Source of the DNA: Paraurantiacibacter namhicola
GTDB taxonomy: Bacteria > Pseudomonadota > Alphaproteobacteria > Sphingomonadales > Sphingomonadaceae
Assembly (NCBI RefSeq): GCF_001687545.1
Contig: NZ_CP016545.1
Span: 1,287,001 to 1,351,000 of the forward strand
Length of the DNA: 64,000 nucleotides
Direction of reading: 5' to 3'
Under the pieces are notes generated by a model. The model made no database searches. It saw only the letters and a list, made by a program, of their open reading frames with translations, and had not been told where the DNA came from. A program made the translations under genes and the position numbers. Below are positions 23,623 through 27,526 of this stretch, piece after piece. The stretch's first letter is position 1. Every line of letters begins with the position of its first letter.

Positions 23623-24282
23623 CTACGCTTCCCCGTCTTCTCCGTCCCCGAACTCCTCCCGCACCGCCTCCTCCTGCTCCAGCGTCTCCAGCAGCGAGCG
23701 GCCTTCGCGTTCGCGGCGGGCGAGGGTGTCGATCTTGCGCTCGATACCCTGCAGGATCGCGTCCTCCTCGGCGAGCGAGGTCTTGCGCTTTTCGGCCAGC
23801 ACCTCGGCGCGGATGCGCTCGTAAACGGGGTGTCCGGGGCGCAGCACGCGCGCATCCCCGCCATAGCGCTCGCCCCGGCGGGCGCGCAGGAAGAACATCA
23901 CCAGCGCATCGTTATGGCGGATTTCGGTGCCCAGCACCTTGCCCGAGGAGACGACCATCCGCTCCTCACCCGCAATCGCGCGGGCGAGCGCCCCGTCCTC
24001 CAGCCGCTGCACCCCGCGATCGACCGCCGCGTCCCAGGCAGCAGAGAATTCCTCCGCCCCCGGCCGCGCGCGCAGCTTGTACAGCGCCTCCAGCGAAGCC
24101 CCGATATGCGCGGCCGCCTGCTTGACGATGCCGGTGGCGGCAAGATGCGCGATGAAGGCGCGCTGGCGATCGGCCGTAATGGAATTGCGCCGCGGCGCCT
24201 TGTGCGGGACAGGCGCGAAGGAGAGCAGCGGATCGTCCGGATCGGGCCCGGCTTCGAGTGCGCCGGTGTCGCGCACCGCCAT
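23623..24282 (-). CDS. HTH protein, possibly terminase-small-subunit-like
   Basis: Protein of 219 aa from MAVRDTGAL; an in-frame extension to 24513 exists, so the start is uncertain. Residues about 35-80 (ITADRQRAFIAHLAATGIVK followed by QAAAHIGASLEALYKLR) form a helix-turn-helix of the kind found in phage terminase small subunits and related chromosomal proteins. The C-terminal third is a Glu/Arg-rich coiled coil (AEKRKTSLAEEDAILQGIE..). No other phage gene is nearby. Function unknown. Confidence 0.65.
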   Translation of the reverse strand: MAVRDTGALEAGPDPDDPLLSFAPVPHKAPRRNSITADRQRAFIAHLAATGIVKQAAAHIGASLEALYKLRARPGAEEFSAAWDAAVDRGVQRLEDGALARAIAGEERMVVSSGKVLGTEIRHNDALVMFFLRARRGERYGGDARVLRPGHPVYERIRAEVLAEKRKTSLAEEDAILQGIERKIDTLARREREGRSLLETLEQEEAVREEFGDGEDGEA

Positions 24283-24621
24283 GTAGGACGTCGCCTGCCT
24301 GGGCGTAGCGCGCGTGTTGACGATGGTGGAGGCCCCCGTCTGCCGGTGGCACTCCGCTTGCCCCTCGGACGAAGCCTTATCGCGTGGAGCCGAGGCCGGA
24401 CGCGAAGCGCACCGGTCCTCGGCAGACAAACCAAAATATTGATCGGAGCCACCATCAGATGCGGGCTGGTCCGGTGACCGGGCGGCGGAGCGGGAAGGGC
24501 GCGAGTAGGACATGCCTGCGGAGTTGGAGGGGGTTGGGGGGTGTAGGAAAGGGAAAGCTTTTAAAACCTCCTAGACCTCAAACCCATTGCAGCGATCTGC
24601 CCGACTAGCTAGCCATGAAGA
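24283..24621. other. Divergent spacer at the left edge of the ATPase cassette
   Basis: About 340 nt upstream of both the HTH gene and the ATPase gene. It may encode an N-terminal extension of the HTH protein (open to 24513). From about 24520 the base composition drops (GGAAAGCTTTTAAAACC), marking the junction with the AT-richer cassette. No clear promoter or attachment site. Confidence 0.4.
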
Positions 24622-25974
24622 ATGATCACCAGGATTGAAATTGACGGCTTCAAGAGCTTCCAAGACTTTAGTCTCAACTTTCGCCCATTCTCAGCTGTGG
24701 TCGGCCCCAATGCGAGTGGGAAGTCCAACCTGTTTGATGCTTTGAAATTTATTTCCTTGCTCGCGCAAACGGATGTGCACTCAGCAATGCAATCAATGCG
24801 TGGCGAGCCCGAGGAGCTCTTTCGAGTTACACCAGTCCGCGAGCACACGGACATGAAATTCGCAGTCGAAGTGCTTCTGCCAAAGTATGGGCTCGACCCA
24901 TTTGGTGCTCGGTTTGAGGTAAATGCGCAACGTCTACGCTACGAATTGGCTTTGACGATGCGCTTTGACTCCGAGCAAATGCCCATTGGGATCGTCGTCG
25001 CTTCTGAGTCTTGTCGTCACATTGCGAAGAAAGATGATCGACTCTCCTTCATCAACAAATCGCTAATTTCCTATTCCTCTAGAAGAAATCCATTCATGGA
25101 AATGTCTAGAGAAGGCAAAGTGCCGATAATCCAGATTCGGCAAGATGGCCCTACAGAGACCGGCGCATCGAAACGTGGCCGTCCTCTAAAGCTCGCTGCA
25201 GGAGAGGCTACACGAACGGCCCTTTCGACCATCAATACGGCTGAATTTCCTCACCTTTTCGCTTTAAGAGAGACTTTGTCCGAAATTGGCTTTCTTGAGA
25301 TTAATCCGTCTGAAGCGCGGAAGGCTAATGACCGATTTGAAGAGAAGAAGCTCCGGTCTGATGCATCAAATCTTGCTTCTGTACTGGCGCATTTGAAAGA
25401 AGAGACTGGAACTCCTGCGCGTCCCGAAGGGGCAGTCGCTGATATTTCGATTGATCTTTCTTCTCTCATAAATTCGGTAAAGAGAGTTAAGGTTCATTCT
25501 GGGAGTAATGTTCGTGAGTATTCGTTTTCCATCGAGACCGAAGACGGTCTCGACTTCAGCTCGCGTTTGATCTCTGATGGAACACTGAGGTTACTCGCTT
25601 TGCTCACGATACTTGACGATCCGTCACGAAGAGGGATTTTATGTTTCGAAGAGCCAGAGAACGGCGTTCACGAGGGACGAATCGATGATTTAATCGAAAT
25701 TCTGAGAGAATCGACTCAAGATTGGAGTCTCGAAGAAAGTCCCTTTCAGATAATTATTAATACACATTCGCCAGCGGTACTAAACTCTCTCCACGAAAAG
25801 GAAATAATCGCAGCTGATTTGATTTCGACAGTAGATCCTGAGGCGGGTTGCTCGGTTCATCGTACGCGAATGCGTGTTGGAGTTGACGACGACGCACTCG
25901 ACTTAGAGCCCGGCGCAATACTGACTAGAGCGGAAATTTCCCGTCTGCTTAGGAAACGCCAAGGACAAGCCTAG
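24622..25974 (+). CDS. SMC/OLD-like AAA ATPase of a two-gene cassette
   Basis: Protein of 450 aa with an ABC-type ATPase head. Visible are FKSFQDFSLNF, Walker A GPNASGKSN (28-36), a signature-like LISDGTLRLL (317-324), Walker B ILCFEEPENG (339-348) with catalytic Glu, and the H-switch INTHSP (379-384). Between Walker A and the signature are about 280 residues with no long coiled coil, as in AAA_21/AAA_15 proteins. No nuclease domain is fused. It is markedly lower in G+C than the surroundings, and the partner ORF starts directly at its stop codon. Inferred: anti-phage or plasmid defence ATPase. Confidence 0.85.
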   Translation: MITRIEIDGFKSFQDFSLNFRPFSAVVGPNASGKSNLFDALKFISLLAQTDVHSAMQSMRGEPEELFRVTPVREHTDMKFAVEVLLPKYGLDPFGARFEVNAQRLRYELALTMRFDSEQMPIGIVVASESCRHIAKKDDRLSFINKSLISYSSRRNPFMEMSREGKVPIIQIRQDGPTETGASKRGRPLKLAAGEATRTALSTINTAEFPHLFALRETLSEIGFLEINPSEARKANDRFEEKKLRSDASNLASVLAHLKEETGTPARPEGAVADISIDLSSLINSVKRVKVHSGSNVREYSFSIETEDGLDFSSRLISDGTLRLLALLTILDDPSRRGILCFEEPENGVHEGRIDDLIEILRESTQDWSLEESPFQIIINTHSPAVLNSLHEKEIIAADLISTVDPEAGCSVHRTRMRVGVDDDALDLEPGAILTRAEISRLLRKRQGQA

Positions 25975-26628
25975 ATGTTTATCTCATGGGCTTCAATTTA
26001 CGAGGGCTCTACTGACGAGTCCTACTTCGGCGCATTGCTGCCCCGTGTTTTGAATGATTTAATCCTTAGCAATGCGAACCGGACTGTCGATGTAGCGGAT
26101 TTTCCCGCCATGAGATTTGGAAAGTCAGGCAAGCATATAGACGAGATTGCGGAGGAAATCTGTGATGGAATGGAGGCGTTTGACCTCCTTTTTTCCCACG
26201 CCGATACAGGTGGGAGGTCTCTCGAGCGGACTGCCATCGCGAGGTCGATGGCGTATGCACAGGCAGCGCACGCACGATGCGGTTATGACGTGATGGCGTG
26301 TTTTCCAATATTGCCGAGAAAGGAAATGGAGGCATGGGCGCTTACTGATGGGCATGCTGTTTGCAGGTCGCTTGGCTTCCGCGGGAACCCTTCAGAGCTT
26401 AACTTGCCATCGACCGCTAGGCAGGCTGAAAGGTTGTCGGATCCCAAGGAGATTCTTCGCCTTGCTATTGGCGAGGTTAAGCGCAGAGTGAGGCCATCTG
26501 ATGCTGCGAGGCTGCTGACGTCGATTGCGCAAACGCAAAGCATTGAAAGGCTGCGTCTTTGTGCTTCTTACGCTTCGTTCGAACGATCTCTGAGCGAGCA
26601 TTTAGAGGAGAAGGGATACTACAGGTAG
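25975..26628 (+). CDS. TOPRIM/DUF4276-like partner of the ATPase
   Basis: Protein of 217 aa. IYEGSTDESYFGALLPRVL gives an early Glu-Gly (10-11) like the first acidic residue of TOPRIM/DUF4276 proteins, LLFSHADTGG (72-80) occupies the DxD position as HAD, and LPRKEMEAWALTDGHA (113-128) matches the EMEAW signature that I associate with DUF4276. ATG follows the upstream TAG without spacer. The pairing mirrors known ATPase plus TOPRIM nuclease defence pairs (PARIS, OLD types), but the subfamily is uncertain and nuclease activity is inference. Confidence 0.65.
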   Translation: MFISWASIYEGSTDESYFGALLPRVLNDLILSNANRTVDVADFPAMRFGKSGKHIDEIAEEICDGMEAFDLLFSHADTGGRSLERTAIARSMAYAQAAHARCGYDVMACFPILPRKEMEAWALTDGHAVCRSLGFRGNPSELNLPSTARQAERLSDPKEILRLAIGEVKRRVRPSDAARLLTSIAQTQSIERLRLCASYASFERSLSEHLEEKGYYR

Positions 26629-26792
26629 CATGCCCTTGACCCCACCCCCAAACCCCACTAAGTGCGCGCCATCCGTTGCGGGGGTCTCCCCTCGCTCCGG
26701 GTAGATAGAGCTGAACATTGCCGGTGATGTCCCGGGGCCTTCGTCTTGTAACGCAAGGCCCTTGTCTATTGGGCTCCAGGCCATGTGGAGGT

Positions 26793-26972
26793 CCCAGCTT
26801 CTGCTGGGATGACGCGTGGAAGGGCCGGGGCAGCCGTCAGAGTAACCCGGTATTCGTGCCGGGTGGAGCGTTTCAGTTTGGTCCCGTCATTCCAGCGCAT
26901 GCTGGAATCTCGTGCCGCTCGCATCGCGCTTGCGGAGACAGATACCGGCTTTCGCCGGGATGACGACCAGGC
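26793..26972. repeat. Dispersed repeat, CCAGCTTnnGCTGGGATGACG type
   Basis: GTCCCAGCTTCTGCTGGGATGACG begins the element. GTCATTCCAGCGCATGCTGG and CGGCTTTCGCCGGGATGACG follow in opposite and same orientation. Each unit is a short hairpin plus GATGAC. Typical intergenic repeats of alphaproteobacteria. Confidence 0.65.
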
Positions 26973-27154: not shown

Positions 27155-27526
27155 ATGCCGACGATCAACCAGCTGGTCCGCAAGGGCCGCGTTCCGCAGA
27201 AGGCCAAGAGCAAGGTCCCTGCGATGGAACAGAACCCGCAAAAGCGCGGTGTCTGCACCCGTGTCTATACGACCACCCCGAAGAAGCCGAACTCCGCATT
27301 GCGCAAGGTTGCCAAGGTGCGCCTGACCAATGGCCGCGAAGTCATCAGCTACATCCCGGGTGAAGGTCACAACCTGCAGGAACACTCCGTGGTGCTGATC
27401 CGCGGCGGCCGTGTGCGCGACCTTCCGGGTGTGCGTTACCACGTGCTGCGCGGCGTGCTCGACACGCAGGGCGTGAAGGACCGCAGGCAGTCCCGTTCGA
27501 AGTACGGCGCCAAGCGGCCCAAATAA
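27155..27526 (+). CDS. rpsL: 30S ribosomal protein S12
   Basis: Protein of 123 aa, first gene of the str cluster. The start [10 protein letters not shown] matches the family. [12 protein letters not shown] (Lys43-Lys44 region) is canonical, but the second decoding-site loop reads [14 protein letters not shown] with Arg88 where E. coli has Lys (position 87 of the mature chain). Located at the A-site decoding centre of the 30S subunit. Confidence 0.97.

Follow-up and report, generated by a model that had tools for sequence, protein, structure and literature searches.

The HEC-01 gene pair upstream of rpsL

The DNA analyzed here, a stretch of 64,000 nucleotides from Paraurantiacibacter namhicola (contig NZ_CP016545.1, positions 1,287,001 to 1,351,000) to which we refer as the window, contains two intact open reading frames (ORFs) on the plus strand, which encode a predicted ATPase of 450 amino acids (aa; P0001, 24622-25974) and a partner protein of 217 aa (P0002, 25975-26628). 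There is no spacer between them, as the TAG stop codon of the first gene at 25972-25974 is directly followed by the ATG of the second from 25975 on. With a G+C content of 0.48 and 0.53, respectively, both genes are poorer in G+C than the flanking 1-kb intervals (about 0.60-0.70). The two ORFs, the missing spacer and the AT-richer composition had already been reported in an earlier note on this stretch, made from the letters alone, and all three agree with our analysis. A comparison of five homologous pairs revealed for both genes that the proportion of non-synonymous differences (pN, 0.07-0.40) lies far below that of synonymous differences (pS, 0.78-0.87; synonymous change is saturated), which argues that P0001 and P0002 are real and constrained genes.

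A search against PADLOC assigned the ATPase to the HEC-01A model PDLC04184 (494 bits, residues 1-447 of 450) and the partner to the HEC-01B model PDLC04209 (208 bits, residues 1-213 of 217); at E-values up to 1, P0002 matched HEC-01B models only. Judged by these profile matches, the pair belongs to HEC-01 of PADLOC, a defence family that is catalogued there as a candidate. The family matches are in line with the probable defence role assumed in the earlier note, and its idea of an under-described module has to be dropped, since the pair is already listed. HEC stands for Hma-embedded candidate and goes back to a preprint by Payne and colleagues from 2024, as cited in PMC12988326 and PMC12111858 (papers given by PMC number are represented here by parts of their text). 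HEC genes are called confirmed for phage resistance in PMC12111858, the available text of which provides details for HEC-04 only.

P0001, the HEC-01A protein, is described best as an ABC/OLD/PtuA-like ATPase. It matches AAA_21 in Pfam (E 7e-29), and its structure model comes closest to PtuA structures from Septu and from retrons (Foldseek E 9.5e-13). The ATPase motifs, which the earlier note had listed as complete, are mostly invariant in an alignment of 24 sequences that includes the window and leaves out L030. This applies to the Walker A motif GPNASGKS (residues 28-35, 24703-24726; G28, N30, A31, G33, K34 and S35 invariant, P29 nearly so), the ABC signature SDGTLR (residues 318-323, 25573-25590; S318, D319, G320, T321 and R323 invariant) and the Walker B region LCFEEPEN (residues 340-347, 25639-25662; all invariant save F342, which is nearly so), as well as to the H-switch THS with H382 (residues 381-383, 25762-25770), which is invariant in the alignment.

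Motifs and fold of the partner protein

P0002, the HEC-01B protein, is probably a nuclease with a TOPRIM-like fold. Its own match to DUF4276 (PF14103) reaches 18.5 bits and stays under the curated cutoff of 30.2 bits; when 23 relatives of P0002 were scanned singly, 22 of them matched DUF4276 with E-values of at most 0.05 (the best being 2.1e-7), and this was the only recurrent family among the 23. On the basis of these profiles we regard P0002 as a distant relative of DUF4276 and not as a member. The DUF4276 likeness proposed in the earlier note thus holds for the relatives and falls below the cutoff for P0002 itself, and the relatives do not point to an unrelated family, an outcome that the note had also considered.

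Motif conservation was evaluated in 23 aligned P0002 sequences including the window; L030 (stop in the translation), L043 (frame problem) and L040 (cut by the contig end) were left out. The residues highlighted previously, E10-G11, H75-x-D77 and E117/E119/W121, are invariant or nearly so. In detail, the conserved positions fall into the EGxxD motif, which resembles TOPRIM motif I (E10-D14, 26002-26016; E10, G11 and D14 invariant), the HxDxGGR motif (residues 75-81, 26197-26217; H75, D77, G79, G80 and R81 invariant), the PxxExEAW motif (residues 114-121, 26314-26337; P114, E119 and W121 invariant, E117 and A120 nearly so) and the DPK motif (residues 156-158, 26440-26448; P157 and K158 invariant, D156 nearly so).

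TOPRIM domains are defined by an N-terminal motif with a conserved glutamate and by a DxD motif, and a glutamate motif of this type is present in P0002 (E10-G11-x-x-D14). The AlphaFold2 model of the protein (pLDDT 92.9) has an alternating strand-helix fold in which E10 follows strand 1, D77 a central strand and E117/E119 a later strand. The C-terminal (TOPRIM) region of OLD ranks second in a Foldseek search with this model (probability 0.90, E 0.043), and a second structural comparison found four OLD entries with Z of 5.1-5.8 over 168-174 residues. An hhalign comparison with one OLD TOPRIM placed EGxxD opposite FEGESD, over 15 columns and with a statistically weightless probability of 1.9%.

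Distribution of the gene pair

Matches to P0002 occur in 9 of 397 Sphingomonadaceae genomes, or in 7, the window included, after removal of two chance matches. Together with the low G+C content this speaks against a core gene pair of native composition, which the earlier note had weighed as well. These two, in G280 and G311, were rejected as HEC-01B relatives because of short matches within long ORFs and an absent ATPase; partial and weak profile matches were seen in G468 and G886.

A scan of genome contigs yielded 28 loci, some of which repeat genomes of the family count; most are alphaproteobacterial, with one locus from Vicinamibacterales and a weak one from Streptomyces. The survey of co-occurrence proposed in the earlier note revealed the partner ATPase at 26 of the 28 loci (only partially matched in L030 and L045), and in both loci without it a contig end is no more than about 105 bases away. 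A one-base overlap between the two genes is seen in 22 of the 26 paired loci. Both flanks were measurable in 24 loci, and in 23 of these the pair is poorer in G+C than either flank. The exception is L030 from an uncultured Rhodopila, where, besides the partial ATPase match, the translation of the partner holds a stop as framed; this locus is a decayed copy, an assembly error or a case of a wrong start. Carriage of the pair by plasmids or phages was considered and rejected, with one plasmid record (a 4.6-Mb Shinella replicon) and zero phage records. Taken from these loci, the HEC-01 pair travels as a compact two-gene cassette of 2 kb. The pair in the window adds a solitary member to HEC-01 and illustrates how widely the subfamily travels as such a unit.

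Comparison with known defence systems and proposed function

The window pair resembles HEC-01 of PADLOC in the nearly full-length match to both models and in the two-gene order of ATPase and partner, with the genes adjacent as a TAG|ATG junction at 25974/25975; it differs in that it stands alone between a gene similar to small terminase subunits (TerS) and rpsL. PARIS likewise combines an ABC ATPase (AriA) with a separate TOPRIM-type effector (AriB), but P0002 has no AriB match in PADLOC and P0001 scores 102 bits to AriA versus 494 bits to HEC-01A. With Septu and retron PtuAB the pair shares an ATPase whose fold comes closest to PtuA, but a Pfam search at E-values up to 1 found no HNH family in the partner. 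OLD and Gabija share the OLD-type ATPase, and the OLD C-terminal region is among the best folds for P0002; in contrast to these systems, the effector is encoded by a separate ORF, in agreement with the unfused arrangement described in the earlier note, and carries HxD rather than DxD. In NCBIfam, P0001 scores best to MAD3 of the MADS system, yet its 151 bits stay far below the equivalog cutoff of 420 bits. WonAB of V. cholerae also consists of two genes for a sensor ATPase and a small nuclease, but WonB is of the PD-(D/E)xK type according to its paper (PMC12137116). Literature searches for DUF4276 and for MAD3/MAD4 returned no paper.

We consider it likely, with a probability of roughly 0.7, that the pair is an anti-phage cassette of the HEC-01 family, in which an OLD/PtuA-type ATPase gates a TOPRIM-like nuclease in an abortive defence. 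This reading builds on the two genes, their motifs and family matches, the near-constant pairing, the foreign base composition and, as described below, a position in a swap slot where relatives carry other defence genes. P0001 would most likely sense the infection and keep P0002 inactive, and a phage trigger would release or activate the partner; P0002 may then act as a metal-dependent nuclease and cleave nucleic acid, and the cell would abort the infection. The nuclease activity, its gating by the ATPase, the nucleic-acid target and the abortive outcome are predictions from sequence. By analogy, working precedents for an ATPase-gated partner are PARIS, where the ATPase AriA sequesters AriB, a TOPRIM tRNase (PMC12409363), and WonAB, which requires ATPase plus nuclease (PMC12137116).

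Several results weigh against an ATPase-gated TOPRIM-like nuclease. The canonical DxD of TOPRIM is absent from P0002 and an invariant H75-x-D77 is found instead, which also curtails the TOPRIM likeness put forward in the earlier note. Foldseek returned no match to the P0002 model at E 0.001 and the matches to OLD are weak, searches of PDB sequences with P0002 and with its profile found no match, and the structure model of P0001 is of moderate confidence (pLDDT 75.8). Moreover, other Rossmann-like folds outscore OLD in the second structural comparison of P0002, namely the MID domains of AGO (Z 6.4-7.4) and PH0156 (Z 7.6), and the fold should therefore be called TOPRIM-like and not proven TOPRIM. 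These scores and the HxD in place of DxD would also suit a P0002 that is no nuclease but another kind of Rossmann-like partner, one that binds nucleotides or ends (MID-like or NTP-modifying); the effector would then be the ATPase. We regard such a partner as improbable, as the invariant acidic residues and the lysine look catalytic and all Z values are below 8, a range in which unrelated folds are common; in addition, the family match is to DUF4276, which is itself of unknown function. A similarly small chance is given to a toxin-antitoxin-like module in the style of AbiE or type IV systems, in which P0002 would be a free toxin that P0001 merely neutralises and which would serve the maintenance of the cassette. 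The Pfam description of AAA_21 as 'putative AbiEii toxin, Type IV TA system', the tight gene overlap and the near-constant pairing are compatible with such a module, but the catalytic motifs of the ATPase are intact and strongly constrained, and in the analogous WonAB toxicity needed the ATPase and simple sequestration was excluded (PMC12137116). From the sequences compared here, nothing appears to speak more for a toxin-antitoxin module than for an effector gated by the ATPase.

A swap slot between the TerS-like gene and the str operon

What is new about the pair is where it lies, in an exchangeable immune slot beside a TerS-like gene whose tail tracks the gene transfer agent (GTA) of the same genome. 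The TerS-like gene (23623-24513, minus strand), which we use as marker of the slot, is located divergently upstream of the pair and matches the PHROG family phrog_4044 'terminase small subunit' (E 9.8e-18), with no Pfam match at E 0.01; its dN/dS is 0.30-0.47 in five comparisons. On the right, the slot is sharply bordered by a probable str-operon promoter (TTGACC-N17-TAAGTG, 26636-26664, plus strand), and the conserved core gene rpsL follows at 27158-27526 on the plus strand. TTGACC, the probable -35 box, lies 7 bases behind the stop codon of P0002. The two cassette genes are the only genes in the 2.1 kb that separate the TerS gene from the promoter, so that no integrase is located there. Five relatives picked by their TerS match carry other genes in the same interval, and homology to the window resumes near the P0002 stop codon (at 26627-26635 in four of them, at 26691 in one). 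The cassette has probably arrived by exchange through these conserved flanks.

A repeat of about 21 nucleotides is found in three places at 26794-26965 (up to 3 mismatches) inside the rpsL leader; 0.56 places were expected, and three were reached in 2 of 100 shuffles. The earlier note had placed repeats next to the pair, and they do exist, but they belong to the leader of rpsL and lie on the far side of the probable str promoter; they do not bound the pair, and we rejected them as borders of the cassette.

The slot was surveyed in 66 loci, a non-random set of 60 loci from among the closest rpsL matches, five TerS-matched loci and the window, in which some loci near contig ends were skipped. 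A TerS-like gene is located upstream of rpsL in 33 of the 66 (27 of 60 among the rpsL-picked loci), two of these calls being weak (L092 and L145). TTGACC is present in 31 of the 33 slot loci and in 20 of the 33 loci lacking TerS. Low-G+C DNA, defined as a minimum 600-bp G+C content below 0.50 within 3.5 kb upstream of rpsL, was detected in 22 of 33 loci with TerS versus 3 of 32 without (L125 was too short). The cargo was analyzed with Pfam for 29 and with PADLOC for 20 of 43 listed ORFs, a list that omits ORFs below 120 aa or above 0.605 G+C. This revealed a clear defence or restriction-modification match in 11 of the 33 slots, the window counted, which is a descriptive count. The cargo named by these searches comprises a type II N6/N4 methyltransferase in two genomes (L086 by scan, and L087 as 87% alike), a C5 methyltransferase and partner in L094 and L119 (the partner in L119 being of the Eco29kI type), OLD in L089, PD-Lambda-5_A in L098, a CBASS cyclase in L113, the TIR protein ThsB of Thoeris in L121, a helicase with DUF2290 in L126, DRT6 in L144 and a RES domain in L099, with weaker ATPase and DUF4062/PDC-S60 matches in L104 and L141. 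HEC-01 was found in the window only, and the remaining cargo consists of non-defence or unknown genes.

To judge from sequence comparison, the cleanest swap is seen between the congeners L094 and L098. They have about 2 kb in which blastn finds no match at E 1e-5, and to either side of it their DNA is 89-94% identical; between the shared flanks, L094 carries the methyltransferase with its partner and L098 PD-Lambda-5. Low-G+C cargo without a clear family was noted in L112, L115, L124, L146, L096 (weak HATPase) and L100 (DUF234), and these six are candidates for undescribed defence genes.

The TerS-like protein and the resident gene transfer agent

The genome of the window has one match to the large terminase subunit (TerL), which lies inside a cluster similar to the GTA of Rhodobacter capsulatus (RcGTA; L190, G000:C1:262500-282400) with TerS, TerL, portal, prohead protease, capsid, tail tube, DUF2460, BR0599 and Rcc01698. 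The TerS of this cluster was called from a sub-threshold Sf6_terminase match, its likeness to a helix-turn-helix (HTH) and its position before TerL. The slot TerS has a C-terminal tail (residues 238-283 of 296, 23665-23802, minus strand), 24 of whose 46 residues (52%) are identical to the C-terminus of this resident GTA TerS. In R. capsulatus, the C-terminal helix of TerS binds TerL, and TerS is described there as having no specific DNA-binding domain (PMC6854486).

For a wider comparison 35 genomes were searched, six of which had no TerL at E 1e-60 and one of which (G018) a partial one; in the 28 genomes used, the GTA TerS was chosen by motif in 25 and by hand in three. Across 26 genomes, the tail scored on average 49.8 against the GTA TerS of its own genome versus 33.3 against those of others (permutation p 5e-5, the floor of the test), and the own GTA ranked first in 10 of the 26 genomes; among the 15 that have a complete C-terminus, it did so in 9. 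The rest of the slot TerS showed no own-genome effect (70.0 versus 69.4, p 0.36). A profile of the 28 GTA TerS C-termini detected the tail (E < 1e-3) in 16 of 52 members of the TerS family, namely in 12 of 33 proteins encoded before rpsL and in 4 of 5 in the slot with cargo on the other side of the TerS gene. Among 13 tail-bearing slot proteins with a GTA TerS in their genome, 11 had the one of their own genome as best match of 28 and two as second best (p 2e-5, again the floor), and for three tail-bearing proteins from two genomes without a GTA TerS the best match was a genome of the same genus. If the split between slot and GTA TerS predates the genera, independent descent would not give such an own-genome match of the tail; under the same assumption, docking to one TerL or repeated conversion of the tail would.

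How chromosomal defence genes spread without mobile elements is an open question, on which the slot bears more than the pair itself. Lateral transduction by phages and phage-inducible chromosomal islands (PICI) is a recent partial answer (PMC12829572). The TerS-dependent packaging and mobile defence cargo of these islands recall the slot, but no integrase is present between the window TerS and rpsL and the tail resembles that of a GTA; the term 'gene transfer agent' does not occur in the available main text of that paper. GTAs are held to pack host DNA randomly, and no discrete start sites of packaging have been found (PMC6854486, PMC7947584). Tentatively, and with the odds rather against it, we propose that the accessory TerS borne by the slot steers packaging by the resident GTA to defence slots, so that the cassettes would be preferentially packed, delivered and swapped via their flanks. 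With a DNA-binding domain of its own and a TerL-docking tail shared with the resident GTA TerS, the accessory TerS would direct the otherwise random packaging motor to the slot, and HEC-01-like cassettes could be swapped in without an integrase by recombination through the TerS gene and the str operon; several slots per genome would then form a GTA-run network for the exchange of immune genes. A TerS paralogue with a GTA-tracking tail beside exchangeable immune genes makes targeted transfer by GTAs directly testable. Among the matches listed from open-access PMC text, no paper was found that connects the TerS of GTAs with defence slots.

Against a steering function it has to be considered that no tail is detectable in 21 of the 33 TerS proteins before rpsL, that several are truncated, and that for 5 of the 13 proteins the tail segment of another slot outscores the own GTA tail, with one tie, although the segments compared include upstream residues common to slot proteins only. 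With the tail detectable in only 12 of those 33, we see about an even chance that the slot TerS is a passive relic or a PICI-like decoy that blocks packaging by phages or GTAs, and that the cargo moves only by ordinary transformation or transduction and recombination of the flanks. The constraint on the slot TerS (dN/dS 0.30-0.47) argues against a relic, and the genome-specific match of the tail suggests continuing contact with the packaging machinery, which a decoy would need, too.

Further TerS-marked loci

Low G+C content is not restricted to the site before rpsL. At 20 TerS paralogue loci, all of those listed for five genomes, the minimum 600-bp G+C content was below 0.50 in 13, and none of 19 control loci at a distance of about 30 kb had such a minimum; one control (L179) was dropped, as its G+C of 0.10 was taken as a run of N, and the control count is 1 of 20 if it is kept. 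Four of the paralogue loci (L153, L156, L163 and L167) form a second swap slot, in which unrelated cargo of low G+C content is set in flanking DNA common to them; the flank beyond the cargo reads by eye as UvrA in L153, L156 and L163, and L167 shares the opposite flank. In a further slot (L148, L155, L159, L162 and L164) the TerS gene is shared and the cargo lies on its other side, that of L155 reading by eye like a C5-methyltransferase set.

A TerS profile run on 34 HEC-01 loci was positive at two distinct ones, L012 (recorded again as L035) and L014, where the TerS-like gene is one gene away from the pair. These loci come from two genera and have one arrangement, in which the HEC-01 pair is followed by a gene for about 290 aa and then by the TerS-like gene. 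In the window's genome, a weak TerS-like match within an open frame of 479 aa (G000:C1:1376433-1376630) possibly marks another slot.

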